DNA from: Prosopocoilus inquinatus
Lineage: Eukaryota > Arthropoda > Insecta > Coleoptera > Lucanidae
Direction: 5' to 3'
NCBI GenBank assembly: GCA_036172665.1
Contig: CM069871.1
Location: 1,302,001 to 1,366,000 of the forward strand
Length of the DNA stretch: 64,000 bases
This document shows, piece after piece, positions 18,318 to 61,700 of the stretch; within the stretch, counting starts at the first letter, position 1; every line of letters starts with the position of its first letter. Below the pieces are notes generated by a model. That model had not been told where the DNA came from, searched no databases, and saw only the letters and a list, made by a program, of their open reading frames with translations. The translations under genes and the position numbers were made by a program.

Positions 18318-18340
18318 TAGTTTAAACAGCGACATCCTAA
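18318..18340 (+). mobile_element. Head-only fragment of the hammerhead element family
   Basis: GAATAGTTTAAACAGCGACATCCT matches the first 23 bases of the element at 29.0 kb and is then cut off. Flanks AAAATTTAAG and AAAATTTAGAG look like an imperfect target-site duplication, so this may be an extremely short insertion of the family. Confidence 0.5.
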
Positions 18341-27730: not shown

Positions 27731-30700
27731 ATGGGTAACTTCAAGGAGACGTTGGGAATCAACGAAATCAAATCCAAGCACAGCACTATCTGGAGGGCGT
27801 TGGTGGCGGAATTCGTGGGAAATCTCCTCCTCAACTTCTTCGTGTGTGCCTCGTGCCTCGTCTCGGCCTCTCACGGAGTCAACTACGTTTTGGTAGCGTT
27901 AACCGCAGGCATTGCCATATTCGTGGTGGTCCAGGTATAAAATCGACGCCTTTGCCTTTTTGAAAAAGCGGATTCTTCTGATTGGGCATTATTATTTCGC
28001 AGGCGTTAGGGCACGTGAGCGGTGCTCACATAAACCCTGCAGTAACCGCTGGTATGTTGGCCACCGGAAACATCTCAATCATCAAAGGTGTTCTGTATAT
28101 AATTGTTCAGTGTGTTGGGTCCATCGCCGGTTCCGCTCTCGTAAGGGTAAGTCACATTATCCATTAGTTCCATTTTGTACTTAGAATTAGTGGCTAAGAT
28201 CTCCTGCAGAAAGCACTTTTCGCTCAAGTAACGTAAACGATTTCTTCGGGAAAGTCCCTACTTAAATGCTTCTGCTACTTTTTTTTTTATTTGACAAAAT
28301 AACTTTGCACCTGCAGGCCTTAAGCGATGAAAACTTGAAGGACAGAGGCGTCACTGCCATAAACTCTCACACCAACATATCTGAAGTCCAGGGCATGGGT
28401 CTCGAATTCTTCCTGGGTTTCGTCTTGGTGCTGACCGTCTTCGGAGTGTGCGATGTTAATAGGCCGGAGGCTAAGCCGGCAGCCGCCCTGGCCATCGGTC
28501 TTGCCGTCACGCTTGGGCATCTTGCGGGGATCTATTTCACCGGGGCCAGCATGAATCCAGCGCGCAGCTTCGGGTCTTCCCTCATCGAAGGAAATTGGAA
28601 CAATCACTGGGTATGTATTAAAATGCACAATCCAATTAAAAACTATTTCCAGAAAGCAAATCACGCTTTTCTAATTTTATTTATTTTATTGTCCTCTGCC
28701 AAATCTTTTTCATAATTTCACTTATCAATCACCTAGATCATAGATAACCCACTGTTATTTATTTTTTAATTCCATTATTATCTGTGAATGACTTTATATT
28801 GATTGATTGACTGGATACCAAAAGCATTACGTTCCATTGCCTTGAGTATTTCAACTTTACGAGTTCCCATTTTATTTTAATGAAAATATTCCGTGACTTT
28901 TCCCAGTTTTCCCTGACTTTAGGTCAAAAAAAACTGATGAAATTGTCTGCGATTACGAAACTTTCTTAAATTTTACGTTTTTAAACAATTTTCTATTTTT
29001 TTCCTGACCTGAGAACAGAAATGATAGAATAGTTTAAACAGCGACATCCTACGATCGAATCGTTTTGGAACTCTTGAGATACGCTTCTGCTGATGAAGCC
29101 CCAAATAGGGCTGAAACGACTGTAAAGAGGCTGCTCAAGGGATTCACTGCAATCAAAAACGATTTGCAAGTTTTTTTTTTTTAGAAATAATAAGACGTGC
29201 AAAAATTAACACCTAATTTAATTTATTTTTAGAATTTCACGTTTATTAAAGGAAACTGCTAGTAAACCTTAAATAATTAACTTTAATAAAGGGCCAATTT
29301 GTCTAAAAATAAAAACATTAGAATTTTTCAGCGAAAAGACTTGGGTATAGGCAAAACAACGAACTCTGTGGTACCTATGGTTGCCTATACTGAAGGCGGT
29401 AAAAATAACTCAAAAATTTTAAATAATTTTGCAATTCTTCCTGATTTAATTTTAATAGACGTCCAAAAAAAATTACTAGTTTATTTTTTTTTAATTTTCA
29501 TCTATATTAATGGAGAGAATTATTGAGTTACCTTCAAAAATCATAAACAATAAATTTTAATAACTAAAGACCGGAAGTTTAGATCGTAAAACAGTTGAAA
29601 AACGCGTGTACCTGTTTTGGGTGTCTTAATTATGATATCAGGTATTTATTTTCTCGTGATAGGTTTTTAAAAAGGCCTAATAAAGTTAAATAAAACATTA
29701 AAGTTAAAGCCATTGTCTATAATTTTGTACAAAATTAAACGAAAGTCGTTGTTTTCATCATCACTTTGCCGAAATTTTGGATAATGACTTTAAATTTATG
29801 GTTTTATTTAACTTTTTTGGACCTTTTTAAGAACCTACACGCGTTTTTCAACTGTTTTACGACGTAAACATCCGACCTTTAATACCTGTTTGAAAATAAT
29901 AAATTGCATTTTCAAACAAGAAAATTCTTAGAATAGGCAATCAAATGAACACAGACGTATGTGTGGTTGCCTACGCTGAAGACCATAAAAACATATTTTT
30001 CTTAAAATTAAAAACGTCTATTTGATCGCGATCTACTGAAATTACTCAACTTTCCTAATTTCTTTTTTTTTAATATTCTATTCAATTCAAAACAATTTTC
30101 TAATTTTTTTCTTCAAATTTGTACTTTTCGTAGATGTACAAAACGTACTCTTTTAAGAAGTCGGCCAAATTAGTGCAGGAAATTATTAAATTACTGTCAA
30201 AATTCGAAAAAATTAGCAATAAAGTGTTAAAATAAAAATAATAATTAACGGAAATTTAAAACAAAAAAAAATTATGCACACAACAAAATAAATCAAATTT
30301 CCAGTTCCTCAATTGTTTTCACTGAATTTACTATTAAAATAGACAAATTCTTTGACTTTTCTCCGATATTCTGAAATCTTTTCTCAATTCCCTGACTTTT
30401 CCCCGTTTTCAAGGCTAGTAGAAACCCTGACCGTACACTGTAAAAAAGCTTTGATTATTTTATTTACACACATAATCATTTACACATGGTTACACAAACA
30501 TGGTTTGTGAAACCATGTTTTCCTCAAACATCTTCGTCTCGTTTTGCTAATGAACGACATTAATTAATTCCAACTCTCTCCGTTCGGTTCATAAACTGCA
30601 AGCGAGTTAAAATGTCAAGGTAAAGGCCAACACATCTGGGATTTACGTTACACTTGACTTTAATCCTATTGTAAGCAGCGTCTGGTTAAAAGATTATGAC

Positions 30701-31506
30701 AGTTATGTTTATCGCTCGTAAACAAAGAAAATCTGGTGCTCTTCAAAACAACGTGAAAATTAACTCCCGAGATTAATTCTTCCATCAAGACTGTACGGCT
30801 GAAATAAAATAAAATCAAGGATGTTTGCAAACGAATTAATAAATTGCAGATTTATTGGGTCGGCCCTACACTAGGAGGCATTGCAGCGGGTTTGTTATAC
30901 AAGCACGTCTTCGCAGCACCATCCCTTGGACCTGTTAAAATAATCGAGAGATACACAACGGTAGTTGCAGATGAAAAAGAGGTATTAAATTTTATTTAGA
31001 AACTACTAATTAGACTTGATACCTTGTTATACTCGATCTTAACTTTCAAGCCAGCTAAGGTTTGGAATGTAGAGACCGATGACAATGTAAGTTGCAGCTA
31101 GAAATAAATAATTAATAGCGTTTTCTCTTATTGGACTGCTCTAGAGCATTCTTGAAGTGTTATCATCTAGTTTGAACCTTGTGTAATAAACAAATAACGG
31201 AATTTGGTACATGTACTGGTGGAAGGGAGGAGTAGGAGCAGGTGGCCGTGGCTTCGCGTCCTGCGTTGATTTGCAATCACAATCTTACTACATTCAAGTC
31301 AACGCAGGACCGCTCCTACTCCTCCCTTCCACCGGTACATGTACCAAGTTCCGTACATTAGTAATAAATAACAAAGGAAAGCAAGCTCACAGTGCTCTGG
31401 AGCAATGAATTGAATCAAATGCGTGAAAATAAAGAGTCAATTGATTACTTATGGAAAAAATATTTTTTAGCTCAAGCGTTTGGATGGAACGAAAAACGAC
31501 GTTTAA
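27731..31506 (+). CDS. Prip: Aquaporin, PRIP-like, six coding exons
   Basis: A six-helix membrane water channel. Exons: 27731-27934, 28003-28146, 28317-28610, 30850-30981, an optional exon 31051-31086, and 31471-31506. All junctions are phase 0 with GT-AG ends, giving 269 aa, or 281 with the optional exon. Two NPA boxes: SGAHINPAV (N79) and TGASMNPARS (N196). The pore arginine is R199, the helix-5 histidine is H184 (TLGHLAG) and the loop-E position is A193. His in helix 5 argues for the water-selective PRIP type rather than insect glycerol porins (Eglp), which lose it. The C-terminus DEKE|LKRLDGTKNDV agrees with the ending of PRIP-type proteins. Odd point: helix 2 reads ALTAGIAIF, so the selectivity-filter position that is normally Phe appears to be Ala (A59). 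The ATG exon starts at an acceptor (27720), so there is an untranslated 5' exon. The 2.2-kb third intron is full of repeats. It converges on the zinc-finger gene. Confidence 0.92.
29020..29180 (+). mobile_element. Hammerhead-bearing short retroelement, copy A
   Basis: Lies in aquaporin intron 3, same strand. Head GAATAGTTTAAACAGCGACA, then TCCTACGATCG, then a long hairpin whose outer arms are AATCGTTTT (29058) and AAAAACGATT (29155), with a hammerhead core at its tip; tail GATTTGCAAG and a T-run. Flanks AGAAATGATAG (left) and AGAAATAATAAG (right) look like an aged target-site duplication. It lacks the segment CTTTTTGACCTGACATTGC present in other copies. Confidence 0.75.
29073..29139 (+). ncRNA. 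Type I hammerhead ribozyme A (intronic)
   Basis: Core CUGAUGA at 29090-29096; stem II AGCCC/GGGCU with loop CAAAUA, a stem-loop close to that of schistosome hammerheads; GAAAC at 29113-29117; stem III of two pairs (A-C/G-U) closed by GACU; predicted cleavage after A29124 (GUA). Outer stem I CTTGAG/CTCAAG (29073-29078 / 29134-29139) is perfect, separated from the core by an internal loop as expected for loop-loop tertiary contacts. The pair next to the cleavage site is G/A, a mismatch, so activity may be reduced. Confidence 0.85.
29569..29882. mobile_element. MITE in aquaporin intron 3
   Basis: Inverted ends of about 45 bp: AAGACCGGAAGTTTAGATCG, then TAAAACAGTTGAAAAACGCG at the left, and CACGCGTTTTTCAACTGTTT, then TACGACGTAAACATCCGACC at the right. 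The interior also pairs partly (AAAGTTAAATAAAACATTAA / TTTATGGTTTTATTTAACTT). No coding capacity. Confidence 0.8.
31051..31086 (+). other. Prip: Candidate 36-bp cassette exon of the aquaporin
   Basis: Acceptor CTTTCAAG at 31043-31050 and donor AAT|GTAAGT at 31087. Exactly twelve codons (PAKVWNVETDDN), phase 0 on both sides, so inclusion or skipping both keep the frame into the final exon at 31471. Skipping gives the familiar DEKELKRLDG ending. If the donor is ignored, translation stops at TAG 31099, giving a third ending. Confidence 0.6.
31204..31347. repeat. Fold-back repeat between the last aquaporin exons
   Basis: TTGGTACATGTACTGGTGGA, then AGGGAGGAGTAGGAGC at the left is matched by GCTCCTACTCCTCCCTTCC, then ACCGGTACATGTACCAA at the right. 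An inner second pair is TCCTGCGTTGA / TCAACGCAGGA, with a single unpaired insert of about 19 bp on the left arm. Higher GC than its surroundings. It separates the optional exon from the final exon. Confidence 0.9.
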
Positions 31507-31947
31507 TCAACCCGGGCATCAATCTCATCGTCAGATTCAAAACTTTGACACTCTTGACGTCACATTCATTATCAAGAAGCAATCGTCAAGATCTCTGTGC
31601 ATTTTATATGTGTAAGCTTTTTACTATAAACGTAATTTATTTTCATGTGATTCCCAGATTTGAATTGCTAACTAAATTCAATCGATGTAAGTGCCTTCCC
31701 TGTTGTTAAGCGAATATGCACAAACCGTTTTGCAGCAACAAAAAAAAATTCCTCGCATAATTGTTCATCGAATTTTTTTTTTTTTTTAAACCAGCGGGAT
31801 TGTACAAAGCCAAATTTTGTTGCTGCAATTCGCGAGTTGAACGCATTTTAATCTTTATGTGTTAGGTTTAGGATTTGAGGAATTTTTAAAATCATTATTA
31901 CATTTAGTACGTGTATATATTTATACAATTATATTGTAAAATGATGT

Positions 31948-31953
31948 AATAAA
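31948..31953 (+). terminator. Poly(A) signal AATAAA, aquaporin
   Basis: AATAAA 440 bp after the aquaporin stop, about 115 bp before the stop codon of the convergent zinc-finger gene. A second AATAAA lies at about 31980. Open sequence between 31507 and here is taken as 3' untranslated region. Confidence 0.5.
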
Positions 31954-32067
31954 CATTATAAAGAATCTGTTTGAAGCGAATAAACAAAATAAAGAATCAA
32001 TTTGCAACTTAAACTTATCCATATGTACACAATAAACACACATGCACATCAGAGTTCAAACCTGTAA

Positions 32068-35000
32068 TTAAACATTGTGCTCTTTTTGGTTCGCCCCCGC
32101 TTGCTCTTCCGTGGTTGCTTCCGGCTTGCTTGTTTCCTGCTGTGAATTATCCAAGTTGATTTTTTTCATGTAGGTCTTCTTAACGACCGGCTTTGGATTC
32201 ACCGTTGGTTTTACGTCGTCTATAATCGATTCCATGGTGTGACGGAATGGGGCTGGCGGCTTATCGGAGACTTTCTTCAAGAGAATCGTGTCCCCTTTCA
32301 TTTCTATTTTGCCTTCCTTTGCCATCGCATCGATCTCAGCTTTCGTCATCATCAACTTCTGCACCCTCACAGTTTTATCACCGATCTTCATGTCCACGAA
32401 CTGCTTATTGGGCAAAGCCTTCACCGCCTGCTTCGACAGATTCAGCCCCAAATTATCCAGCGTGGTGATTCTTTGATTAATCTGCTCGGGCTTCGCGGTT
32501 TGCGGCCTTGATATATTCACGTGCGGGATTATTCTCGGCTTCTCTGTCGTATTCTTCCTCGCGTACACCTTTGTGCCTTCGATTCTAACAATCGGTTTGA
32601 TCGCTTGCTCTTCAGGGTTTATGTCGGGGGTTATTTCTGAAGGCTCTTCTTCTTCTTCCTCTTGGATCAAGTCGTCTTCTACATCGGAGCCGAGCTCTTC
32701 TTTCAGAAACTGGGCGTAGTTTTTTATTTTGGTGGCCCTCCTTGGCCTGCGCACGACTTCTGGATTCTCTGGGTTTGTTATTGTGAATTCTGCCACGTCA
32801 TCCCCTGAATCGTCGCCCTCTTCCTTGTCTAGTGATGAAGAAGCGTTCTGAGTGGCCTCTAGGTGGACTTCTTGTTCGATTTGGTCTTCGTATTCCATCT
32901 CAGCGTGCTTGATTTCATGCTCTTCCAATTGATCTTGCGTATCAAACGAGTAATCACACTTATCACATGGATACGGCAACCCTGATAGGTGTGTTGTGAT
33001 ATGGTTCATTACTTGCTTGGCATTCTCAAAAGCGGTATTACAGATTACGCATTTCAGATTTACCATCGAATGTATAGTGCTGTGATTTATAAGAGAGTCC
33101 TTACGTCTGAAGGACATGCTGCAAATGTCGCACTTGTGTTGACCTATCGGTTGTGATTCCGCATTTTTAGCTGCGTAGTGACTTCGCATGTGCCTCGTCA
33201 GATGATGGCTTAGCAAAAACGTGCGTCCGCAGAGCTTGCATGGATAAGGCCGTAATCCAGCATGAGATGTTATGTGCCTCATCAACTTAATGGGTGACGT
33301 AAAACTTGCCTCGCAATAGTTACACTTGTGTGGCTTCTCCTCGCTATGTGACACTTCGTGTCGTTCTAACCCCTGTTTAAAAACAAAGCTCTTCTTGCAG
33401 ATGCGACATGAAAACGGCCTCTTTTTCTTGTGCTTCTCCGAGTGGGCATCTAAATCAGCTCGGCTCAAGAAAGTTCGATCGCACGAGGAGCATAAATACT
33501 TAGGCACATCGACGTGCGTTTTTTCATGACGATGCAGGAGAGACTCCCTTGCGAACTGCTTTTGGCAAACCACGCAGGTATATGGTCTTGCATCCGAGTG
33601 AGTTTGGATGTGCTTGCCCAGATCATACTTTGTGAAAAATCTCCGGCCACACTGCAAACAACCGTAGCTGCGTTCCCTCGTGTGATTCTTAATGTGCAAT
33701 TCTAGCAGCTGCTTCAGGGGGAAGGACCGCTCGCAGTGCTGACAAGGAAACACATCCGTTTGCACTTGGGGCACCTTCAGTATCGGATTAATCTTCATTT
33801 CATCGTCGTCATCCTCATCCTCCTCGTCATCGTCATCTCGCTCATCAGACATATTCTCGATTATCTCCTCATGGAGATTCTCGACCTCATCTAATTCCAT
33901 GATTTGTCTGGAGTTTTCCTCGTCTTCGAAATGGGCTGCGCTTTCCAGTAGCTTCCCCGCATCGAGGGGCTTTGTGTTATTTAACATGACGACTGTGTTC
34001 TCTGTCTTAATTCTTTTGGCCTCTATTTTCAACGGCTGATCTTTGTCTGAGGCTCTTTTCTGTGAACTTATCTAAATAGAACAAAGAGAAGAAATACAAC
34101 ACTCAAATCAAATTCATCAGCAAGGTAAATCAAATCAAATTAATCAGCAGTATAACGGCGCACAACAGAAAATTGGATTGGTCATGTCTTCAAACTAAAA
34201 GGTCCAAAATCTACAGTTTTAGGCCAAAAAAAAAAATATCTTTTCAATATTTATACATTAAAGAAGTTAATATTTCCACGTATTTATAAAAAATAGTAAT
34301 CATTTTCTCTAATAAAATAACAAATATAAAGGAAAACAAGACACCAGAAGAATGCAAACACAAGAATATCTTTTAAAACAGAATTATTTAAATTTAAATT
34401 TTCATTTCTATAATACTAAAAGGTTCAAAATCTACAGTTTTAGGCCAAAAAAAATTATCTTTTCAATATTTATACATTAAAGAAGTTAATATTTTCACGT
34501 ATTTATAAAAAATAGTAATCATTTTCTCTAATAAAATATCAAATATAAAGGAAAACGAGACACCAGAAGAACGCAAACACAAGAATATTTTTTAAAACAG
34601 AATTACTTTAATTTAAATTTTTATTTCTATAATAGGCATAAAAAAAAATTAAATCCGTTTAATGGAAACATTTCTTTTATTGCGTCAGATCCAAAAATTC
34701 CCTTCAAAGAGGGATTATCTCTCCGATTGACAACACTGCTTGAATTATGTTAAAAAAAATGGTTGACAATTTAATGACATCAGGCTACTTATTTTTTTAA
34801 ACAAAATCATTTTAATTTAAATTTTTATTTTTGTAATACTAAAAATCATTTAATAAAAAACATCCTTTCATTGCGTCAAATCCAGAAAATCCCTGCAAAG
34901 AGGGATTATCTCTCCCATCTGGCAGCACTGCTTGACATTTGTTAATGAAGTTAAGTTACACAATGTTGCCAGCTTTAGGGAAGAATTGCTTGAAATGATG

Positions 35001-36583
35001 TTATTTAATAATAATTATTATTACCATCATTTTATTAAGCCCAAAACAGAAAATAAACAAGTAAATAATTATAAAATAAATTATAGGCCTAATTGTAAGG
35101 TCAGATGATCTAAAAAAAAAAAACTTAGATCCCTGATCTCCTCCTTTATATCAACAATTAATATTTCCAAATTATTTTAAATAACAGAAGGCAATTTCTA
35201 TATTTTTTTTTTCATTAATTTAAAATATAAAAAGATGAAACTTTATGGTTGGGGCAAATCTGTCGAATAAGAGGTTGGCAACACTGGTACTTCATTTCAG
35301 TCGGTATTTGAAGAGATAATGTGCGAATTGTTCCAAACTTTTAATTCAAGTACTGAATACATTCTGCAAAATTAAGAATAAGAGATAAATATTTTTTCAA
35401 AAGTAATGCAAGTAAATAAAGTTGTTGGGGAAAATAATAACTCAACATCTGTCAGAAGTTTCAGTTTGTCAATTATCTCCTAATTTCCTTAGCATCCTCT
35501 CCATACACAAAAACAAGAAGTGACCAAATTTAAAGTTATCCTCAGAAAATTTTGTAATTAAACACTTAATTATGTTATGCATACTCATATTTTGGGGGTG
35601 GGGGGGGGGAAAGGGTGAAAGATCACTCCATCTTCTGATTACTTTTGAAAAAAAAAAAAAATCTGCTTACACTAGTGTGGCGCCCTCTACACAATTTTGC
35701 ATCAAGCTTTCACTGTTGCCATAGTTACCACATTGTGTTACATTTGATGGATTTGATGTTTAATTTCAATTTTGCACAATTTATGTGAATTCGAATAATC
35801 GAATCGCATTCTTGCCACTCCAAAATGCTGCGCTTAACAAATTTTGCACTGATTTACAGCGAATCACTTCTTTGAAAATGGTAACACATCACATGCGCAT
35901 CACTCTAGAGTGACTCCTTCTGTATCTGAACTAAGAATGCAACCGGAATTTTGTTTATGCATCTAGAAAGTCGTGTTTCTGATTTTAAATTTAAACTTGA
36001 TCACTCTCAGAATACTTTCCGAATGCATCCCTCTTTGTCAAATGATTATGAATTTATTTACTTTATTAGTTTTGCACTTACTAAAGCTGCTCGAAGCTCC
36101 TTATTATCCGACCCTTTCAAAATCTGAATGTTCCCGGTAGCGAGGAAGAGCTTGAGCGCATCGTCGGATTTCTTGCATGTAGTTTTGAAGATGTACGCCT
36201 GGTTGGTGTGGCTCCGACACGTGTTGCATATAAGCTGGGGCATTCCATCGTTTTGAAACACCTGAAAATTTACAAGATCACTTTAGCTCAGAATCAAACT
36301 GAAACTGACAGCTGGAAGACAAAAAATTAAAAAAAATTCTTGCTCAAAGGAAAACTAATTTCTGAGCAAGTGGTTTAAAGTTGTAATAATAATGTAATGA
36401 ATTGTATTTATAATAAATACGAACTTCGATTGCGACGCACGCCATAATTTGAAGCGGGAGTGGGACCGATTGTTTCGCATCTCTGCCGCCGTCCCTTTCG
36501 TAGATGTTGGTAAGAGGCCCCTTGTCGTCGAGACAAAATCTGCAAATGTTCATCGCACGCAGGATGTTTGCGCGCTCTTCCAT
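32068..36583 (-). CDS. ZAD C2H2 zinc-finger protein, 780 aa
   Basis: A nuclear DNA-binding regulator of the insect ZAD class. Exons (minus): 36583-36425, 36261-36082, 34071-32068; all junctions phase 0. The first donor is GAA|GTTCGT, weak but the only choice that keeps the domain intact. Residues 12-95 form the zinc-finger-associated (ZAD) dimerisation domain, with zinc ligands C14, C17 (CRFC) and C65, C68 (CNTC). An acidic segment rich in Asp/Glu follows at about 186-205. Ten C2H2 fingers run from about 221 to 502, with TGEKP-like linkers partly replaced, so DNA contact may be irregular. The C-terminal 280 residues are acidic then basic ([15 protein letters not shown]) and without known domain. 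I cannot assign the Drosophila counterpart. Its first intron ends and second intron contain duplicated AT-rich blocks. Confidence 0.93.
34194..34640. repeat. Two-copy tandem duplication, about 226 bp, in a zinc-finger gene intron
   Basis: Both copies contain CTAAAAGGTYCAAAATCTAC, TTTTCAATATTTATACATT, ATTTATAAAAAATAGTAATC and GACACCAGAAGAA, differing by few bases. A looser second pair follows: ATTGCGTCAGATCCAAAAAT at about 34680 and ATTGCGTCAAATCCAGAAAA at about 34873, each followed by AGAGGGATTATCTCTCC. The rest of the intron to 36081 is AT-rich with nothing else recognised. Confidence 0.85.
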
Positions 36584-38891
36584 TTCGATGTTTACGCCCG
36601 CCAGTAAAACTTATTTTACACTATTACACCGAAAATCTACAACGACGCTAGAAAATGGTGGTCGGCTTGGCTTCTGCACGGATTTTTGTTACCGCGTTCT
36701 CCGCTAGGGCATAATCAATACTCATTCAGCGAGTTACCGGCAGATGGCGACAACTGCAACAAAATTAATTTCCGTTTCTAATGATTAATTTTGAAATTTC
36801 AGAAAACCCAGTTCGATAATTTGCTATATTTACGCAATAAACTTCAACCGGAGATTCCCAGACACCCCAAACGTCTTTTTGTGATTAAATTTCTAATTAA
36901 TTCAAGCGAGCGAAGCTCCATCTGCGTTCCAATAATACCAACCGCGGAATACAGGAGCGAATTATAAAAATAATAGAGTTCTGAATTCAAATAATTTATT
37001 CACTATACTTGCAAGCGTAGTTTCTAAATTACGTTGTGCACAAGATTTCTTTCCTTGGAATACTGTAAAATTACTATAAGATGTCTTCGTTTTGAATAGT
37101 CTCTTAAAAATTTTATTTATTTTCTATACGTTTTTAGTAATAATTCTTCATCATTCTTCGATTTCTAGAATTAAAACTGACGTTTTCATTGACAGTGACA
37201 TATTAGTATTAATAAATTAATATTTATTTAAATTTGAAAGCAAAAGATTTCATCTTTTCTTGTTTTAAAATGTAATCTAACGCTGTCAATTGTACTTAGT
37301 AATAATAATGTATACGTGGGTGGCAGCAATGAAAGTAAAATAAAATAAAAATATTAAAAAAATTTAACATTTCCTTAAATTGAAGTTACAGTTTATTTAT
37401 TTTATTTTTTTAATAATGAGGATAGCAGGGTTGCCATATTTAAAAATTACAATATTTGACCGTAGAGTTTGTAAAAGCGGTTTTCTTTAAAACAGACGTT
37501 TCGCTGTGTGTTGACAACATCTTCCGAATGAATAATAATAATAATATTTTACAAAACTGCTATTAAGTAACTTCGATAATTATTTTAAATTGTTTTTTTT
37601 TCCCCCGATTTTTTGTTTTATTAAACTTGTCGGTTTGCTTCCTGGACCGTCATCCGTTTCTCATCGTAAAAACATGCTTCGGATTGTTGTCGGTGTTTGC
37701 AGAAGATGGAAATAATAAACAACGTTTTGCGTAACTTTTATTAAACACAACATTTATTATAAAAGAGAAACAAAGAAACTAAAGATATAAGAAATAAATA
37801 AAACAATACACTGTACAATAAATAAATTAAAAGCACTCTATAAATATGCGTAGTCATCAAAAATGGTCATAAATAAGTTTATACAAAAAAAATAAGCGCT
37901 TTTTGAAATATTCGAAATGTCATTGTTTGGACCTCATTCTAAGATAAAATATTAACAAAATTTCCGAAATTAAAGAGAAGGATGTGTTAATGCTAATTAA
38001 CAAGATTCCATTAATCTTTTATAAACTGTGATGATTATTGATTTTATTTTAATTATATAAGTAAGTTTTAAATCACGTAAACTAAAAATAAAATTAATTA
38101 ATACATAAACAGATATTTATAAATAAAAACCTTTTTCATTGTTTTTTTTTTTTTAATAATTTTTTGTCGCGTCTCTCATTTATTTGTCTTTTTTAATTCA
38201 ATTTCTTCAAATTTTTGTTTAGGCGCCTTTGTGCTTTGACTTGCATCGCCTTATCGTTTCTTTCTCTATTAATATGCATTGCTTATTTCACTCGCTAATT
38301 TAAATTTTGTAAAAGGGTATAATACGATACGATCGAGAAATACAGTTTTCTAGTTTGCCATAAACACCCATAGATAAAAGCCAGTGCTACCAATAAAAGC
38401 ATAAACTTCATAACAGACAGCTTGTTGGTAACAGATTTTCACGTTACAGTAATAGATGTCGCTATCATAATCACGGGTGAGATACTATCCCTGATAAATA
38501 CCAATGAGATATTATATCTCACTTTGCGTAGTGTTTTCCCTAATTGAACAAATTATTTTAAGTTTCTAACGATTGAAATTTTGTCTTAAGTCTCGAGCGG
38601 TTTAGTAAAAAATATTTTCTATTGGCAACAGAAAGTCACCAAACCTAGTACCAAAATCACTAGATTGGCAACATTGAAAACAGCAGTGACGATGACGCCA
38701 ATACAATTTTTAAGTCAATTTAACAGCAAACTAGGAAGTTTTCTCGGTTATTTGTATTTTATGTTGCATTTCTTGCGTCGATTTATTAATATTCCACGGA
38801 TGACGCTTATGTTATCCGCAGCAGGATAAACAAGTTCAACTGATTGGAGTTGATATCAAAAAGTCGCTAGGTTAAAACAAAAAAAAGAAAC
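36584..38891. other. Intergenic DNA upstream of the zinc-finger gene
   Basis: 36584-36770 is CpG-richer and likely holds the zinc-finger promoter (minus strand). No TATA box is obvious. 36780-38890 is AT-rich; only a repeat fragment GACGTTTCGCTGTGTG at about 37490 is recognised. No gene seen. Confidence 0.4.
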
Positions 38892-39159
38892 CTGTATTTT
38901 ATAAACATATAAAATAGCGACATCTTACTATCGCTTTTTGACCTAACATTGCAATGTTATGTCGCTATTTTATATGTTCATCATTCTTACATCGCATTTG
39001 CGAATAAATTGGGCAAGTCGTTTTTGGTCTGCAGTGGGAATGTCGAGCTACGTTTCTGCTGAAGAAGCCCCAAGCAGGGCTGAAACAGCTGTCCAGAGGC
39101 TGCTCGAGGTTCTCACTGCAATCAAAAACGATTTGCACAAAATTTTTCTGTATTTTATA
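38892..39159 (+). mobile_element. Hammerhead-bearing short retroelement, copy B, with 12-bp duplication
   Basis: Flanked by an exact 12-bp duplication CTGTATTTTATA (38892-38903 and 39148-39159). Inside: the head TAAAATAGCGACATCTTA, CTTTTTGACCTAACATTGCA, then an inverted copy of the first 20 bases (ATGTCGCTATTTTATATGTT), then GCGAATAAATTGGGCAAGTC and the hairpin with its hammerhead tip, ending GATTTGCACAAAATTTTT. The inverted 5' segment resembles the inverted 5' ends common in Penelope-like insertions. No protein coding capacity. Confidence 0.85.
39043..39107 (+). ncRNA. Type I hammerhead ribozyme B
   Basis: CUGAAGA at 39059-39065 (U7 changed to A, a position that tolerates change); stem II AGCCC/GGGCU; GAAAC at 39082-39086; stem III A-C/G-U closed by AGCU; cleavage predicted after C39093 (GUC, the preferred triplet). 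Stem I inner TTTCTG (39053-39058) pairs with CAGAGG (39094-39099) with one G-U; outer TCGAG (39043-39047) pairs with CTCGA (39103-39107). All required core bases are present. ACAGCUGU around stem III is palindromic, which favours action as a dimer. Confidence 0.88.
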
Positions 39160-39853
39160 GTTTGCAAGACCAGTTAAACTTTGTAGACGTTTCAAAAATA
39201 AAACATTATGAAGCACTTAAAACACCATTCTCTATTCAACACGACAACCTGTCAAAGGTCGTGCTCGCTAATTTATAATAACATCCACCTGCAGTGTTCC
39301 CAACTTAAAATGTTGAGGAGTCACCTGGAGGTCAATTGAAACCGCTCACTCTGTAAGAATTTAAAATTTCATTTCATTAAACGGAAATAAACAAGTTGTT
39401 TGTAAAAATATTTCAGTTTGAAACCATTCGTGGTGTATAATTTAGTAAAACAAGACTTAAAGTGATTTCAGTCTTCACATTTTTTTTGTTAACATTCTTT
39501 GTTATGCCATTTGAAGTAAGAATTAGGCAAGCCAAAATATTTCTTTGTTAAAATACCTATTTTGAGATCCAATAATTAAATTGACATCCTTAAAATTTTA
39601 ACACAAGGCAGAATACCAACGAGATCAACTGCATCATTTATTATTGGAGTGCGCGCGGTTCTTTTTTTTCCGGAGTTGACAACACTGACGAACATCACAA
39701 ATCAAATTTTAGGTTAGGTCGTAAGTGCTTTTGGCAATTTATTTGGCGTTGCGGAACATCCTCGTTCATTTAATTGTCGTCTCATCAGCATTTTTGCAGT
39801 TATAGTAGAAGTTAAATTATTTTGTAAATTTGACAGCCGATCAAACTGACTTG

Positions 39854-40794
39854 CAGTGATGCCAACTTAGCCCTTTTGGGGCTAGATTTAGCTCTTTTCT
39901 GAGAGATTTAGTCCTGTACATTTTCAAACAGCTCCTGAGGGCTGTTTTAGCCCCAAAATTAATTTTCGTTCAATTAATAATCGTTTTGTTTTATTTTATT
40001 TGTCGCAGATATACAGTGCGCACCAAAAAGTTTTATACAAATGGAGAAAAAGTTTATCTAACATTTCACAGAAAAAAACATATTCTCGATAAAAAGCTCT
40101 GCATGACTTGTAGATCTATAATGAGGTACAAAATTAAAAAAAAAAAGTTGGCTGGAATACAGGGAGAATAAAAAATAATGATTTGGACGGAGAGCAAAAT
40201 ATGTTCAAACTGTATTGGGGAGCAAAATTTTCATTGAAACTGGGATTAAATAGCAAAAAATTATTATAACATATATATATTTTTTTTGTGAAATGTAAGG
40301 TAAACTTTTTCTGCATTTGTATGAAACTTTTTGGTACTCACGTAAATTTAAAAATTGTTAAAAATATATTTTCTCTTATTTATTTTTTACAAGAATTTAT
40401 TTTCAGTTTTCTATATGATACGTGTATTTATATATTTTTGTTTATTTTGTATTTTATTTACAGTATTTAAAATATTTTGAAATAAACTACTGACTAGATG
40501 AGATTCGCAATAACATTTTTATTTATTTTATTTTATTTTATTTATTGCCTAACAAATCAATAAAAATGTTTATTTTTAACTGAACGCAAACTTTTTAATC
40601 CTTTTATCTCAGTTAAACTTAACTTCAAGCTTCGCTTTATTCCCGTGGTAACAATTATAAGGAGTAAGGACAATTGTTTCTGTAGGAATAAAACGGAGTT
40701 TAAAGTTAAACGCCAATTGAAAAACTGGCCCTAAACCATTCAAAAATCTAGCCCCATTTTGGTTTCTTTTCTAAATGTAAAGTTGGCATCACTG
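39854..40794. mobile_element. Non-autonomous hAT-like element, 941 bp
   Basis: Ends CAGTGATGCCAACTT and AAGTTGGCATCACTG are exact inverted repeats. Flanks AACTGACT(TG) and AACTGACG suggest an 8-bp duplication with a small disturbance at the left, as for hAT elements. Inside, TTAGCCC/GGGGCTAG words near both ends form further inverted pairs. A TATATA-rich middle has an imperfect inverted pair (TGAAATGTAAGGTAAAC / GTTTATCTAACATTTCA) and no transposase frame. A shorter relative lies at 52985-53478. Confidence 0.8.
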
Positions 40795-41017
40795 AACTGA
40801 CGTCAATTAATACCACCAACAACCATATTGCGACGATCACTGCCCACTCCGATTGTGAATTCGTTTAATCTCTTGGTATTATTACATTTTGGTTTCGTTT
40901 CGATAAAGATCTCATTGCAAGTTTCATGTGTATGATGATAACAATAAATAAAATAAATTAAAAGCTTCTTCGAATACCAATTACCCTAATCTTTACGTCT
41001 CGCTCCTTTTCAGTTCG

Positions 41018-44000
41018 TTAAAATTTACTTACTTGCTGACTTTTTGTCCTGATTCTATCTCCGTACGCCGAATCAATTTGGTATTGGGCTTGCGCATGCG
41101 CAAGCGCATGCTCGTTAGCCTCACCTTGCAAATCATCTTCGTAATCACCGCGTTCTTGCTTCTTCTCACCACCCTCATCTGCGTTTTCAAGCTCGTCGTG
41201 GTCTTCGCTTTCCTCCTCGTAATTATCGGGGACGTATATCGTCATAGGTGCTTTGGATTCGACAGTCTTGACCTGTTGGGAATTGTTGATCTTCCCCGCT
41301 TCCTGCAAGGACGCGAGGACTTCCGCCGCCTGGCGATTCGGAAGCGTCGAGTAGAAAGCGTCCTTGGGAATTTCATTCGTATCAAAATTATTATTGGTGG
41401 CCTGAGCGTCCGCTTCCACGATGTTTTCGGCGGGGTGCTCAAAATAATGTTGGATGTATTGGGCCTGGGCTAACGCGTCCGCTGAGTTTTCCTTTTCCGG
41501 TTTGACGCCGAAGTCACCCGCCACCCTTGAGGCAATCTGCTTGCCCTGCACGTTCCTTTGGTTCTGTTCTTCGTAGCTGCCGCCGAAATTATGGGGGTTG
41601 GTGGTTAAGATTGCTTGCTGTTGACGTATCAGGTGCTGCTGAAGCTGGGGTTGTTGAGCCACCGGTAATCCGTACGAATCCAGCAGTTGTTGTTGGGGGT
41701 ATAAATTCAGCAGCTTGTATAATTCTTGGGGGGTCAAGGTTTGAGCTTGCTCTGGTTGGGGGGCGACGAGGAACTCGGCGTGGGCCAGGTTGCTCAATTG
41801 TTCCGGCGAAGGGGAAAGTTTGTTGACCTCGCGGATTTCATTGGCCCCAATTGTTGGGCTTGGCTCGTAAAATATGGGCTGAAGTTTGATTTGCTGGTGA
41901 TGTCCTGGGTCGTCCTCGGTTACCTGGTATTGATGAGACTTTTGTATTTCCACTATGGTATGCTGATGTTGGGGTGGTTTCTGCTTGTACACCACATTCT
42001 GCTGTTGAGTCTGTTGAGATAGTTGGTTCTGGTAAACAATCTGCTGGGGTTGATAAATCTGCGGAATTGACGACTGTACTTGTTCGATATTGCTTGGTTT
42101 ATCCGCCAGGCTTAGATTTGGTGCGGGGATGGTGTGGATAGGCCCTTTTTCCCCGACCTGCTTGATCGTGTTGGTGTGCGTCGGGATGTTGTTGGTCTGT
42201 ATGTGGTAATCATATTCGGCCAAGCTGATGGTCGGCGAGGACAAGAAGGGCTTCTCGGTGGCTATCTTAAAACTTTGGGGGGCGTTCTTCCAAATGCTTC
42301 GCACAGGTGTCAAGTGCCTGTTGGTGAGTACCGGTGGGCCTATCGGCTTCTTGAAGGACGGCGGTACTTTCACGGGTATGGGCCTCGGTCTTAGCTGGTT
42401 TCTAGGCGGGGGAGGAGGAGGAGGAGGATGCTGCCACTTTTTTATGTACGGGGGTTGTCTTGGGGGTTGAGGTGGACCTCGGAATATCCTTCGGTAGTTT
42501 CCTTCCGTCACCTTGATGCGCAAGAACCATATCGATATCAAAACTAACACGGTGGTTACCTGAAACATTCAAGTTTCAAGCTTTATAAATTACCATCTTT
42601 AATAAAGTAATCACAATCATGATACAGGGTGTACCAAAGCTTATATAGAATTTTATAAATATATTTTGAACAACCTTTGTAATATTAGGCTAAAATTAAG
42701 TTCTTCCTCAGTACCTTTAAGAAGTTAATTGATTATTATTAATTAATTTTTTTTTAATGCTTTCTGTCCGGCTTTTACTACTTGAACTGCCGTAGCTTCT
42801 TTACAAGTAAGTTTAAATCGTATGAACCGATAAAACAGCGACATCCTACGATCGCTTTTTGACCTGACATCGCAATTGCGAATAAATTGGACAAGTCGTT
42901 TTTGCTTTGCAGTGAGAATGTCGAGTTACGTCTCTGCTGATGAAGCCTCAAACAGGGCTGAAACAGCTGTACAGAGGCTGCTCGAGGTTTTCACTGCAAT
43001 CAAAAACGATTTGCAACTAAAAATCGATTTCGACTAAAAATTACTTAATTAGCACACCCCCGTAACTTATGTCAGTTATGTGTGGAACACCCTGTATGAT
43101 ATAATTTAATTAATTTTGGTTTGCAAACTTAAAATTTAATCTTGTTGGATTTTTTTTTTGTAATTCTGGAAAGTGTAACTCTGATCTCTGAACCTAATTG
43201 TACGTTTACAACTACCTTTAACGAAATTCAAAACTAATATAAAGATCGATTGAAGTTGGAATTTAAAGTCAAAATCATGCAAAAAGTGTTTTGAATTCGC
43301 TCTTACTTTTTTCTTCGGTTTTAAACTTGTTTTTGTGTTTTTTTTTCTGTGTTTTTTACAACAATCTAATTTGATTTATTTTTATTTTTTAATAAATTCC
43401 TTACCGTTTCATTAAAAAAAAAGAAATTAATTTGATCCTAGCCTACATTCTTTTGTAAATACAAATTATTTCGGTGTATTTTTTCTTTAATTAAAAAATA
43501 AAATAAAAATATTCAAAGAAATATTTTGGTTAAAATTTTTAAAAAAATTCCCGTTCCGTTCTGTTTTAAAAATATGTTTAATTAAAAAAAATAAAAATAT
43601 TCAAAGAAATATTTTGGTTAAAATTTTTAAAAAAATTCCCGTTCCGTTCGGTTTTAAAAATATGTTTAATTAAAAAAAATAAAAATATTCAAAGAAATAT
43701 TTGGATAAAATCTTTAAAAAAATTCCCGTTCCGTTCGGTTTTAAAAATATGTTTAATTAAAAAAAATAAAAATATTCAAATATTTTGGTTAAAATTTTAA
43801 AAAAAATTCCCGTTCCGTTCTGTTTTAAAAATATGTTTAATTAAAAAAAATAAAAATATTCAAATATTTTGGTTAAAATTTTAAAAAAAATTCCCGTTCC
43901 GTTCGGTTTTAAAAATATGTTTAATTTAAAAAAAATAAAAATATTCAAAGAAATATTTCAGTTAAAATCCCGTTCTGTCCGGTTTTAATTTAATTTTCTT

Positions 44001-49250: not shown

Positions 49251-50980
49251 AAACCGTATTTTCATGAGCCGGAGGAGAAAATTAATTAATTAAATCAATT
49301 AATAGTTTTATTTTATTTTATTCTTTTTTATGTACGAGTCACTTCTTATTTTGCTGTGTTTGACAAGTCAAAAGCCATGTACATCTATTTGCAACGTTGT
49401 ATGGCAATATGACCCAAATATATTTAAAAAAAAAATCCTTGGTCTTTCGTTTTTGCGTTCATTTTATTATCGTCGATTTACTTCAAAACTATGCCGTTTT
49501 TGACGTGAGTTCATATGAACTTTTTTGACGGAAATCGCTCGCAGAATAAGCCCTTGAAATTTCTCGCACATATTTACAATCACCCTGTATATAACTGAAG
49601 CACTGTGTATCGGACAAGATGGTGTTTCGGCTATATTTTCCTGTCACAGAAACAGTGCAACGAAAATTTCGATTTTTCTAAGTATCCGCAACAAATTAAT
49701 TATAAACCCTGTACACAGATAAAAGATGAAAATGAAAAACACTTTAATTGGAGCTAAAAAAAATATTATTTATTATTATTATCGCAGAACCGTTAAGGGT
49801 TAGTAAGGGTTTATTTATTTTATTTTTATTTTACTTAAAGAGAAAAAGAAAAGTTATAATACTATTTTTCAGCTCGAATTGAAGCGTTTTTCTTTTTCAT
49901 ATTCTATCTAAAGCTTTTCGTGTGTTTGCAAACACAAGGTGGAGAGGTTTTCTATTCTTTTTTTTTATTTGTGACGACCATGACCCATTAAGGGCGCGCG
50001 TTCAAGGAAGTCCGTACATCCCAGATGCAGGATGTAACGAACATATAATCAATGTAATGAAGAAAGTGAAAGACGAGAGATTCAAATAACACGCTTGCGC
50101 TTCGCTTCATCCTTGCTGAAAACCAGTGGCAAGGTGAAACCGGCGAGTTAAGAGAAAACGTTCAATTTTTTTTTTCTTTTTTAGCTCCGTCGTAATTGTG
50201 AGATGCACGTAGAAAGTTAGAATGCAGAAAATTAACCGGCGACTATTAGCTTCGCCCTAAATACAAAATGATCATTAAAGAAAATTACCATTTTCCGTTT
50301 GTGTTTAGATATTTTCTTGTTGGAGAATGTAGCGGATGGCGGTGGTTGAAAACCTAAATATTTTTCTCTTGTTTTCGCGCGTGGTATTTATTAAACCGTT
50401 GTTTATTTTGTCAACAAAAGAGAAAACTGGCGACTTAAAAAAAGAACGAACGGACGGATTGGAAATCCACCGCCGCCGTACGCAGAGATACCTTGGGCTG
50501 CTTGGGATGTAGGTTTGTAGATCAGCAAACAGCGCTCGTTTTTAAAGAAATTGTTTACCGGTTTTTATTCTGTCACTCTCTTATAACTATAAAAGTAATA
50601 CAAAGTAGAAACAAAACGCTCAAAGTAGTCCTCGGCGCTGCAAGGAGTTCTTAAATTGCAATATAATTTTTAACCCAAACTTAGAGCTTTTAAAAGAACA
50701 AAAAAAAAATATTAAGCTTACTAGAAACTTTGCACGCTCAAAATAAGAAGATAATCAAAAAGGAAAACGACAATAATAAAAAATACAAATAAAAGAATCT
50801 GATTGACGTTTAAGCCCTTAAATACAAAGTCATCAAGAATGATTGTTTGCTGTTTTGTTTTTAAACGATGCAATTTAACTGACGACTTGACACGCGCGTT
50901 TTAAGCTATAGTTTGCTACTAGAGACTCACCCTGCGTTAAATCAGGTAAGTCGTTCGAATTGCGCTGGAATTTCTCGGGC
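49251..50980. other. Intergenic DNA, partly unique
   Basis: No gene supported. CACCCTGTATATAACTG at 49582 is a repeat edge. 49970-50540 is less AT-biased (GGGCGCGCGTTCAAGG, CACCGCCGCCGTACGC) and unique within the window; it could be regulatory, but no exon can be defended. Confidence 0.4.
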
Positions 50981-50990
50981 TGCTTTTTTG

Positions 50991-51035
50991 GTGATGAGGT
51001 TCCAATTAAGGTCGAAATAGCTGTACAGAGCGGAT
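50991..51035 (+). pseudogene. Decayed hammerhead core D
   Basis: GTGATGAGGTTCCAATTAAG, then GTCGAAATAGCTGTACAGAG keeps the order UGAUGA - stem II region - GAAA - AGCUGUA - CAGAG of copies A-C, but the first core base is G instead of C, stem II no longer pairs well and GAAAC is GAAAU. Likely inactive. Confidence 0.55.
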
Positions 51036-51074
51036 CCTTGAGAGCCCCACTGAAATGTGAGCTGACCCTGCTAC

Positions 51075-52984: not shown

Positions 52985-53478
52985 TAAATTTTCAAAAAGC
53001 CCTCGAGGGCTATTTTAGTCCCAAAATTAATTTGCAGGACTGTTAGGATTATTAAAATTATTTAATTAATTAATTTTCGTTCAATTAATATTCGTTTTAT
53101 TTATTTATCGCATTTTTTTAAATTTAAAAATTGTTAAAAATATATTCTCTTATTTATTTTTTACGAGAGTTTATTATTTGCAGTTTTTTTTGTATCATAT
53201 ATGTATTTATATATTTTCGTTGGATTTGTATTTTATTTATAGTGAATAGACAAAACAGCGACATCCTACGATCGCTTTTTGACCTGACATTGCAACAATT
53301 TTTTTTTATTTATAGTATTCAAAATATTTTAAAATAAACTAGGCATTGACTAGACGATATTTGCAATAACATTTTTATTTTATTTTATTTATTACTTACT
53401 TCTTAGCCCTAAACCACTCAAATCTAGCCCTATTTTGGTTTCCGTCTAGCTCTTTTCTAAATGTAGAGTTGGCATCAT
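52985..53478. mobile_element. Decayed relative of the 39.9-kb hAT-like element
   Basis: GGGCTATTTTAGTCCCAAAA, TTAATTAATTTTCGTTCAAT, TCTAGCCCTATTTTGG and AGAGTTGGCATCATTG correspond in order to 39940-39980 and 40750-40794. The left terminus is missing or unrecognisable. A hammerhead-family head is inserted in it. Confidence 0.75.
53231..53316 (+). mobile_element. Hammerhead-family insertion without ribozyme, 13-bp duplication
   Basis: GAATAGACAAAACAGCGACA, TCCTACGATCG, CTTTTTGACCTGACATTGCA, ACAATTTTT, flanked by exact TTTTATTTATAGT on both sides (53231-53243 and 53304-53316). The hairpin with the ribozyme is absent. It sits inside the decayed hAT-like element, so it is younger. Confidence 0.85.
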
Positions 53479-53495
53479 TGGTTCGAACTTTTTTC

Positions 53496-53560
53496 GTGAT
53501 GAGGTTCCAATTAAGGCCGAAATAGCTGTACAGCGGATCCACTGCAATCTGAACTTACCC
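53496..53560 (+). pseudogene. Decayed hammerhead core E
   Basis: GTGATGAGGTTCCAATTAAG, GCCGAAATAGCTGTACAGCG, GATCCACTGCAATCTGAA: same changes as core D (paralogous by duplication), but it keeps the CACTGCAATC downstream arm of copies A-C, which confirms descent from the same element. Confidence 0.55.
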
Positions 53561-58706: not shown

Positions 58707-61700
58707 TTATTTCCTCAGGTGGTTGGCGCAGTGCGGCACGATTTCGGAGTCCTCGCAGGTCAGGGTCGACTCGTCGAAGGACTTGCCGTGGCCGCAGGAA
58801 ATCAGGCGTGGAAAACCGTTGACGCAGGTTATCAGACGGCCGCAGTCACCCGGAACGGGGAACCTCGGGAAGGGCCAAAATCTTGCGGCGGCGCTGTGAG
58901 ATGGTATTTTGGTTGGACACTTAAATCCAACGACAGCTAAACAAGAAGAAAAAAAAACATACTTATTATCAGGGAAAAGAATTCGGGCCACTTGTTCTGG
59001 GAACATTTAGTACTCGGACTGTATTAGCCCCTCCCGCAATAATCTCTGATGAAATGAAAACGTACTCCTTCCCCTCCCACTTAACAATAATTCAAGGTGG
59101 TGAGAACAAATAGTATATTCGGCGTCAAAAGTGTCCAACACTTATGCTTATTATTAACAAAATAAATAAGAGAAATTTGCCTCAAGCAACACGACCGGTC
59201 ACAGCCTACGAAAGACAGGCTGTAGTTTGGAGCGGGGAACAACTTCGAAACGAAGCTGCCCCTCCACTCAAATCCTGGCCTGTCTTTTTAGTAGGCACTA
59301 GAACACCATTTTGCATCGTTGCAAATCGAATTTTCTCAAGGATTAAGTTAAACTGAATTTGAAATATTTCAACGCAGATGTTTTGAAAATTAAAAATGTA
59401 CAGTATTACAAAAACAATTGCAAAATGAAACCGTCACAGTTTCTTCGTTTAAAAAAAAAAATTAACACTAATTTATTGATGAACAGATAAAATAGCGACA
59501 TCTTACGATCGCTTTTTGACCTGACATTGCAAAAAAAAACGATTTGCACAAATTTTTTTAAAAACTAATTTATTGGTAATTGAAATAGGTCATTTTGAAA
59601 TTATTGGATAACTGCAACGCAATGAAAAGTTGTTTATTTGGCTTGCAATAAGGAAGTCAAGGAGGTGCAGGGAACTAGGTTTTAAAAAGAACTGTAAGAC
59701 AGATTGGAGAAAAGTTACGAAGAAGTTCTGGAACAAGTTGCTAAGAAGTTGTTGAAAAGTTCTTTGTGGGATTCGATTTACGTGTTTAGTTTTGAAAAAC
59801 ATCTCATGATTAAGCGTAAGTAGTTTGTAAGTGTTTTTTAATATATGTATTTAGTTTTCAATGAAAACATGTTTTCCTGTCCTCGCCCCGCTGTGCTCAA
59901 GGACCCACGGTTTAACTTGATTAATGATTTTCCTGCTCTCACCCCGCTGTGCTCAAGGGCCCACGGTTTAACTTGATTAATGATTTTCCTGCTCTCACCC
60001 CGCTGTGCTCAAAGGCCCACGGTTTAACTTAATGAACAAGCTGCTAAGAAGTTGTTGAAAAGTTCTTTGTAGGATTCGGTTTTCGTGTTTAGTTTTGAAA
60101 AACATCTCATGATTAAGCGTAAGTAGTTTGTAAGTGTTTTTAAATATATGTATTTAGTTTTCAATGAAAACATGTTTTCCTGTCCTCGCCCCGCTGTGCT
60201 CAAGGACCCACGGTTTAACTTGATTAATGATTTTCCTGCTCTCACCCCGCTGTGCTCAAGGACCCACGGTTTAACTTGATTAATGATTTTCCTGCTCTCA
60301 CCCCGCTGTGCTCAAGGGCCCCGGTTTAACTTGATTAATGATTTTCCTGCTCTCACCCCGCTGTGCTCAAAGGCCCACGGTTTAACTTAATTAACAAGCT
60401 GCTAAGAAGTTGTTGAAAAGTTCTTTGTAGGATTCGGTTTTCGTGTTTAGTTTTGAAAGACATCTCATGATTAAGCGTAAGTAGTTTGTAAGTGTTGTTA
60501 AATATATGTATTTAGTTTTCAAAGAAAACATGTTTTCCTGTCCTCGCCCCGCTGTGCTCAAGGACCCACGGTTTAACTTGATTAATGATTTTCCTGCTCT
60601 CACCCCGCTGTGCTCAAGGGCCCACGGTTTAACTTGATTAATGATTTTCCTACTCTCACCCCGCTGTGCTCAAGAACCCACGGTTTAACTTGATTAATGA
60701 TTTTCCTGCTCTCACCCCGCTGTGCTCAAGGGCCCACGGTTTAACTTGATTAATGATTTTCCTGCTCTCACCCCGCTGTGCTCAAAGGCCCACGGTTTAA
60801 CTTAATGAACAAGCTGCTAAGAAGTTGTTGAAAAGTTCTTTGTAGGATTCGGTTTTCGTGTTTAGTTTTGAAAAACATCTCATGATTAAGCGTAAGTAGT
60901 TTGTAAGTGTTTTTAAATATATGTATTTAGTTTTCAATGAAAACATGTTTTCCTGTCCTCGCCCCGCTGTGCTCAAGGACCCACGGTTTAACTTGATTAA
61001 TGATTTTCCTGCTCTCACCCCGCTGTGCTCAAGGGCCCACGGTTTAACTTGATTAATGATTTTCCTCATCTCACTCCGCTGTGCTCAAAGGCCCACGGTT
61101 TAACTTAATGAACAAGCTGCTAAGAAGTTGTTGAAAAGTTCTTTGTAGGATTCGGTTTTCGTGTTTAGTTTTGAAAACATCTCATGATTAAGCGTAAGTA
61201 GTTTGTAAGTGTTTTTAAATATATGTATTTAGTTTTCAATGAAAACATGTTTTCCTGTCCTCGCCCCGCTGTGCTCAAGGACCCACGGTTTAACTTGATT
61301 AATGATTTTCCTGCTCTCACCCCGCTGTGCTCAAGGGCCCACGGTTTAACTTGATTAATGATTTTCCTGCTCTCACCCCGCTGTGCTCAAAGGCCCACGG
61401 TTTAACTTAATGAACAAGTTGCTAAGAAGTTGTTGAAAAGTTCTTTGTAGGATTCGGTTTTCGTGTTTAGTTTTGAAAAACATCTCATGATTAAGCGTAA
61501 GTAGTTTGTAAGTGTTTTTTAATATATGTATTTAGTTTTCAATGAAAACATGTTTTCCTGTCCTCGCCCCGCTGTGCTCAAGGACCCACGGTTTAACTTG
61601 ATTAATGATTTTCCTGCTCTCACCCCGCTGTGCTCAAAGGCCCACGGTTTAACTTAATGAACAAGCTGCTAAGAAGTTGTTGAAAAGTTCTTTGTAGGAT

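Follow-up and report, generated by a model that had tools for sequence, protein, structure and literature searches.

Minimal hammerhead ribozymes of Penelope-like elements were reportedly described by Lunse and colleagues in 2017. Among metazoans, non-LTR retrozymes are characterized as tandem repeats of 150-450 bp that yield circles, and insects are already among the carriers named in that report (Cervera and de la Pena 2020, PMC7229834). In invertebrates, according to PMC7761336, most type I hammerheads cut as monomers and possess a stable helix III. The axolotl hammerhead Amex1, with a single-pair helix III and a palindromic tetraloop, is reported to be weak alone and to cut better as dimers (PMC7229834). 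For a Penelope-like element of the green anole, it is reported that cutting needed the protein, that cutting was dispensable for insertion in vitro, where uncut RNA was the main substrate, that no RNA reads started or ended at the cut site and that changing C3 to G abolished cutting (PMC11167929). These results indicate that self-cutting need not belong to the life cycle of such an element.

Here we describe a hammerhead-bearing element in the beetle Prosopocoilus inquinatus, within a 64-kb stretch of DNA that was analysed as a whole and is called the window below. No beetle hammerhead element was apparent in the literature searched, as judged by titles and the beginnings of abstracts. The exact sequence patterns of the element had no match in viral contigs or in prokaryote genome contigs, non-insect collections in which a null result carries little weight.

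The motif that an earlier note on this DNA had pointed out belongs to what we call copy C of the element, and is confirmed as a complete type I hammerhead with a minimal stem III, all 11 of 11 core bases being present. Its parts are as follows.

42937 to 42971, plus strand: hammerhead core with stems II and III and cleavage triplet GUA; predicted cut between 42971 and 42972
42963 to 42970, plus strand: stem III (ACAGCUGU), the pair A15.1-U16.1 and one C-G pair around the palindromic tetraloop AGCU; a perfect 8-nt palindrome
42893 to 43012, plus strand: long hairpin found by folding (z -8.5), with a stem I of 38 bp (12+13+6+7) and the hammerhead core as its cap

CUGAUGA occupies 42937-42943 and GAA 42960-42962 (GAAA, 42960-42963), with U16.1 at 42970 and H17, an A, at 42971. 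Stem II pairs AGCCU with GGGCU (42944-42948 and 42955-42959; 5 bp, one of them U-G) and is closed by a natural-type loop, CAAACA. The inner helix of stem I, CUCUG/CAGAG, is perfect and grows with a U-G and a G-C pair to GUCUCUG/CAGAGGC (42930-42936 and 42972-42978), seven pairs that are found in copy D as well. The second helix, UCGAG/CUCGA, is also perfect and extends to UCGAGU/GCUCGA (42921-42926 and 42980-42985). The internal loop between the two helices, with UUAC on its 5' side, corresponds to the loop of Rfam HH9 in the alignment. CUGAUGA, the paired stem II, GAAAC, the two-pair stem III closed by AGCU and the triplet GUA each stood where the earlier note had placed them, and its description of stem I, two perfect helices around an internal loop with outer arms that lengthen the stem, was borne out up to the 38 bp given above.

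Blast and profile searches of the window returned six copies of the element, all dispersed and on the plus strand, together with two divergent relatives of the ribozyme hairpin.

42824 to 43018, plus strand: copy C, with left module, ribozyme hairpin and right end (about 195 bp, bounds approximate)
38904 to 39147, plus strand: copy D, 244 bp, between exact 12-bp duplications at 38892-38903 and 39148-39159 (CTGTATTTTATA)
39059 to 39093, plus strand: hammerhead of copy D, with CUGAAGA (N7 is A) and cleavage triplet GUC
29027 to 29180, plus strand: copy B, with a shorter 5' arm (about 154 bp, bounds approximate; matched stretches 29036-29057 and 29076-29169)
29090 to 29124, plus strand: hammerhead of copy B, with GUA, a mismatched first stem I pair and a stem III loop, GACU, that is not palindromic
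53243 to 53303, plus strand: copy E, with the left module and then a T-rich end but no ribozyme hairpin; flanked by an exact duplication of 12 bp
59479 to 59563, plus strand: copy F, in which the left module runs into the right end close to a TGCAA repeat and there is no ribozyme; flanked by an exact duplication of 12 bp
18318 to 18339, plus strand: left-end fragment of 22 bp, found by blast
50938 to 51056, plus strand: relative G, a divergent form of the ribozyme hairpin in which G replaces C3 of the core (nhmmer E 4.2e-10)
53489 to 53551, plus strand: relative H, a divergent form of the ribozyme hairpin in which G replaces C3 of the core (nhmmer E 6.7e-06)

The type I arrangement (CUGANGA ... 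GAAA ... UH, three stems, open end at stem I) is present in copies C, D and B, each with all 11 core bases. Exact 12-bp target-site duplications flank three of the six copies, namely D (CTGTATTTTATA), E and F (TTTTATTTATAG, ACTAATTTATTG), with null fractions of 0.0015, 0.0035 and 0.0035, respectively, among 2,000 random pairs of stretches per copy. The best flanking duplications of C (9/12, null fraction 0.23), B (9/12) and the 22-bp fragment (10/12) were not significant. All six copies retain the left end, and C, D, B and F the right end as well; the right end of D and F, CACAAA, is A+C-rich. The ribozyme is missing from E and F and, counting the 22-bp fragment, from three of the six copies. 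Copy F retains, besides the left module, the final portion of the right end, and the T-rich end of E resembles, by eye, that of D and F. E and F are both broken, again by eye, at TGCA-type repeats on either side of the hairpin, which would fit a copying enzyme that skipped a strong hairpin. Judged from these features, the carrier is a dispersed short retroposon of about 150-245 bp in its three ribozyme-bearing copies, in agreement with the multi-copy dispersed short element that the earlier note had proposed. Its description of the family as active or recently active stood to the extent that movement was recent enough to leave three exact duplications, and no further.

Relatives G and H share the right end ACCCYGCTAC. 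The first pair of stem II is G-C in both, against A-U in C, D and B, so that both sides of the pair have changed. They are apparently an older subfamily, and by analogy with the C3 to G result in the anole their hammerheads are probably dead. A further piece of the element, an inverted insert of its left end, is seen by eye inside copy D at 38957-38991 (weak profile match, E 0.028); the flank of the insert is, by eye, unlike the sequence beside D, and the insert makes a second strong hairpin.

Several other features of the window were recorded. Copy C is flanked by 18-nt inverted repeats of the ATACAGGGTGT type at 42619-42636 and 43083-43100 (89% complementary), and no second copy of the unit that they bound was matched in the window. 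The gene adjoining copy C on the minus strand (41021-42568) has 72 relatives at E <= 0.001 among 7,986 candidates scored. An organism name is attached to 25 of these relatives, one of them a caddisfly (E 1.3e-4); the other 24 we take to be beetles. The best named relative is from Trypoxylus dichotomus (38% identity) and the next from Onthophagus taurus (35%). An aquaporin coding stretch (MIP, PF00230, 91.3 bits) lies at 28266-28712, just upstream of copy B. At 31209-31342 there is a near-perfect palindromic hairpin with arms of about 30 bp, matched on both strands and with a GC content of 54% in an AT-rich window; its miRNA scores are sub-threshold (37.4 bits versus 90). On the minus strand an AAA-ATPase-like protein fragment (2590-3117; PF09820, 30.7 bits) has a neighbouring open reading frame (2123-2464) with no Pfam match. 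A tRNA-derived SINE was rejected as the carrier, ARAGORN having found no tRNA in the window, which is a weak test.

We estimated how often such a motif arises by chance with a strict descriptor applied to both strands of the window, which left N7 free and required GAAA, 4-6 pairs in stem II, a stem III and agreement with the NUH rule. It found three sites, at 29090, 39059 and 42937, all within copies of the one element, and no antisense hammerhead in the 64 kb. In 2,400 simulated first-order Markov windows there were 26 descriptor matches, none with a stem I of at least 5 bp, and a separate simulation gave three matches in 300 windows, again none with such a stem. Because its first stem I pair is mismatched, copy B taken alone is no rarer than the simulated matches (26/2,400).

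The covariance search that the earlier note had proposed as a check fell short of the Rfam gathering score: there was no match at that score in the whole 64-kb window, and the hammerhead clan gave none at E <= 1 over the 16-kb stretch 28000-44000. Judged at that curated threshold, the observation would fail by the refutation rule that the earlier note had set. On short stretches the best scores were 23.8 bits for copy D (Hammerhead_1, threshold 34, E 0.0005), 17.9 bits for copy B (Hammerhead_1, threshold 34, E 0.044) and, as the best clan score for copy C, 16.7 bits (HH9, threshold 52), all in the right register; the E-values apply to stretches of 126-141 bases only. In the alignment the stem II loop of copy B, CAAAUA, is the loop of the Rfam type I consensus, and the Rfam type I model likewise has a palindromic stem III at the same place. 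We judged that the in-register, sub-threshold scores, together with the chance estimate and the substitution pattern described below, outweigh the failed Rfam threshold.

The motif might instead be a coincidence, a fragment of protein-coding sequence that happens to resemble a hammerhead. A frame, SADEAxxRAETxVxRLL...TAIKNDL, is indeed open in three copies, and four of the six differences between C and D in the ribozyme block fall at its third positions. The proportions in the other pairs are 5/11 and 6/12, however, so that there is no clear codon-position bias, the counts being small; no protein relatives of the frame were found among the candidates scored, the loops match Rfam hammerhead models, and both the simulations (0/2,400 windows with a stem I of at least 5 bp) and the folding of the 38-bp stem I (z -8.5) speak against coincidence. 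We therefore rejected a coding origin of the motif as very improbable.

Folded, 42892-43013 reaches -64.0 kcal/mol, whereas its shuffles average -31.3 (z -8.5) and none of 200 did as well. Across the 121 aligned positions of the hairpin, ten differences separate copies C and D. Four of the differences affect bases that are not paired, namely N7 (U to A), H17 (A to C), one in loop II and one in an internal loop. Six are at paired places, where five stay paired through G-U and one (42907) breaks its pair. When the ten changes were placed at random, at most one broken pair occurred in 377 of 200,000 trials (P 0.0019). A pair of the second helix has changed on both sides, from C-G in C and D to U-A in B. 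In copy B neither the first pair of stem I nor the U-G pair of the second helix is formed, and the outer 5' arm has been rearranged. None of the 14 variable sites of the 68-nt block falls in the core (hypergeometric P 0.06, weak on its own). The pairs kept through G-U and the pair changed on both sides indicate pairing of RNA rather than of DNA, and the RNA structure is probably under selection, although few sequences were compared. A DNA-hairpin or terminal-inverted-repeat transposon was rejected: blast of 42600-43110 matched only the element elsewhere in the window, and the passage of differences between copies through G-U states also disfavours it.

The element resembles the animal retrozymes in being short and multi-copy, in carrying a type I hammerhead, in showing no LTR and in having an RNA predicted to be stably self-paired (features described in PMC7229834). 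Copies C (about 195 bp), D (244 bp) and B (about 154 bp) lie within the retrozyme size range of about 150-450 bp, and where target-site duplications of more than 4 bp are reported for retrozymes (PMC7229834), those of D, E and F match at 12/12 positions. The likeness to retrozymes claimed by the earlier note thus held for size, motif and duplications. In contrast to the tandem repeats of that report (PMC7229834), our six copies are dispersed and single within the window, and the stem I that carries the ribozyme measures 38 bp in copy C. No tandem arrangement (0/6 copies) and no repeated ends or pseudo-LTRs at the copies were found in the window, so that the dimeric arrangement and the terminal repeats mentioned in the earlier note had no support there. 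The newt and axolotl hammerheads sit in tandem satellite repeats of 330-350 bp, whereas the beetle copies are dispersed. The Dolichopoda cave cricket repeat pDo500 is also an insect hammerhead repeat, but it is satellite DNA and is likened here by description only (PMC2837043).

With Penelope-like elements, as far as these are described in PMC11167929 and PMC6155905, the beetle element shares a minimal stem III, a retroelement setting, A+T-rich insertion sites and an open frame across the ribozyme. Conceivably, a full Penelope-like element left the copies behind as solo ends (pseudo-LTR plus 'tail'). Such short inserts, with the hammerhead and the first codons, would arise when copying of an RNA that starts in the pseudo-LTR begins internally, about 100 nt inside the open reading frame. 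The anole element has its hammerhead at the start of the frame, is copied from 111-118 nt into it and has A+T-rich sites cut (PMC11167929); in copy C an ATG at 42918-42920 opens a frame that crosses the ribozyme and continues without a stop as far as the right end, some 100 nt away. C, D and B all have an open frame across the ribozyme, and the A+C-rich right end CACAAA of D and F would also suit such an origin. Neither the pseudo-LTR nor the protein was seen in the window, however, and loops resembling natural tertiary-contact loops are present, which Penelope hammerheads are reported usually to lack (PMC6155905). Proteins of about 290-924 aa that begin in this way were sought without success (12 candidates, none at E <= 10), as were short protein relatives (92 candidates, none at E <= 10). 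Third positions, with 4/6 (C-D), 5/11 (C-B) and 6/12 (D-B) of the differences, show no clear excess, and the left end of the copies is constant instead of truncated. We consider both the derivation from solo ends and the internal start of copying unlikely.

A limited motif scan detected no Penelope-like protein (reverse transcriptase plus GIY-YIG) in the window. Among the three open reading frames (at least 45 aa) that passed the motif filter, none appeared by eye to be a reverse transcriptase, and the one of the three that was Pfam-scanned was the aquaporin; the filter would miss short or decayed reverse transcriptase pieces.

Stem III sets the element apart from most invertebrate hammerheads, which are reported to have a stable helix III (PMC7761336). 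ACAGCUGU is its own reverse complement in C and D; the palindrome is perfect in these two, 8/8 with wobble in G and H and 6/8 in B. As in axolotl Amex1 (PMC7229834), stem III of C and D has a single pair beyond A15.1-U16.1 and a palindromic tetraloop. Applied to the three copies, this dimeric-type combination of a single-pair helix III and a palindromic tetraloop is found with AGCU in C and D and is not found with GACU in B. The palindrome of C and D makes action as a dimer plausible. When folded without constraint, C and D pair the core GCUG with CAGC of stem III, which hides the core. This competing fold is favoured over the core-open one by about 5 kcal/mol in C and D and by 0.6 in B, in an energy model that ignores the tertiary contacts of hammerheads. 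Taken together, the competing fold and the palindrome suggest that single RNAs would cut slowly and pairs of RNAs faster.

A hidden core would also suit a decayed, catalytically silent relic of an old element whose hairpin was spread passively. The mismatched first stem I pair of copy B points the same way, as does the C3 to G change of G and H, which in the anole ribozyme ended cutting (PMC11167929). Against a relic, the changes that separate C from D spare the core, and almost all of them preserve pairs; moreover, the whole core and exact duplication of D, with the exact duplications of E and F, indicate that the family moved fairly recently. We regard a silent relic as distinctly unlikely.

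Where the ends can be placed and the cut site is present (C, D and B), no copy ends at the cut site (0/3), and G and H run across it. The linear RNA released by cutting was thus not the template copied in these cases. Candidate templates are then uncut RNA, RNA that was closed again, and the antisense strand. The antisense strand carries no hammerhead; the left end present in all six copies would suit it, but the right end is likewise present in C, D, B and F.

We favour, as a reading of the sequence that is probable though well short of certain, a retrozyme-like, non-autonomous family of beetle retroposons whose ribozyme acts mainly as a dimer and which is moved by the reverse transcriptase of another element. 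The sense RNA of the element would fold into the long hairpin, and the ribozyme would cut between 42971 and 42972 slowly when alone and better when two RNAs pair through ACAGCUGU. The cut ends might stay held by stem I and could then be rejoined. Uncut or re-closed RNA would be copied by the reverse transcriptase of a Penelope-like element or a LINE, and the copy presumably inserted at an A+T-rich site. A more particular and quite doubtful version is a tandem-free, SINE-like element in which the competing fold nearly silences single RNAs, pairing through ACAGCUGU switches the ribozyme on and stem I permits re-joining. If this switch were real, self-cutting would serve dosage-dependent control or the formation of circles from monomer transcripts.

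Our findings add a beetle family to the animal hammerhead elements, as a retrozyme-like addition rather than an established retrozyme. The family lends itself to testing, since a single 64-kb stretch holds copies whose core is whole, relatives in which it is changed and copies free of the ribozyme. It bears on the role of the ribozyme in such elements, and on whether dispersed single copies can yield circles without a tandem template.
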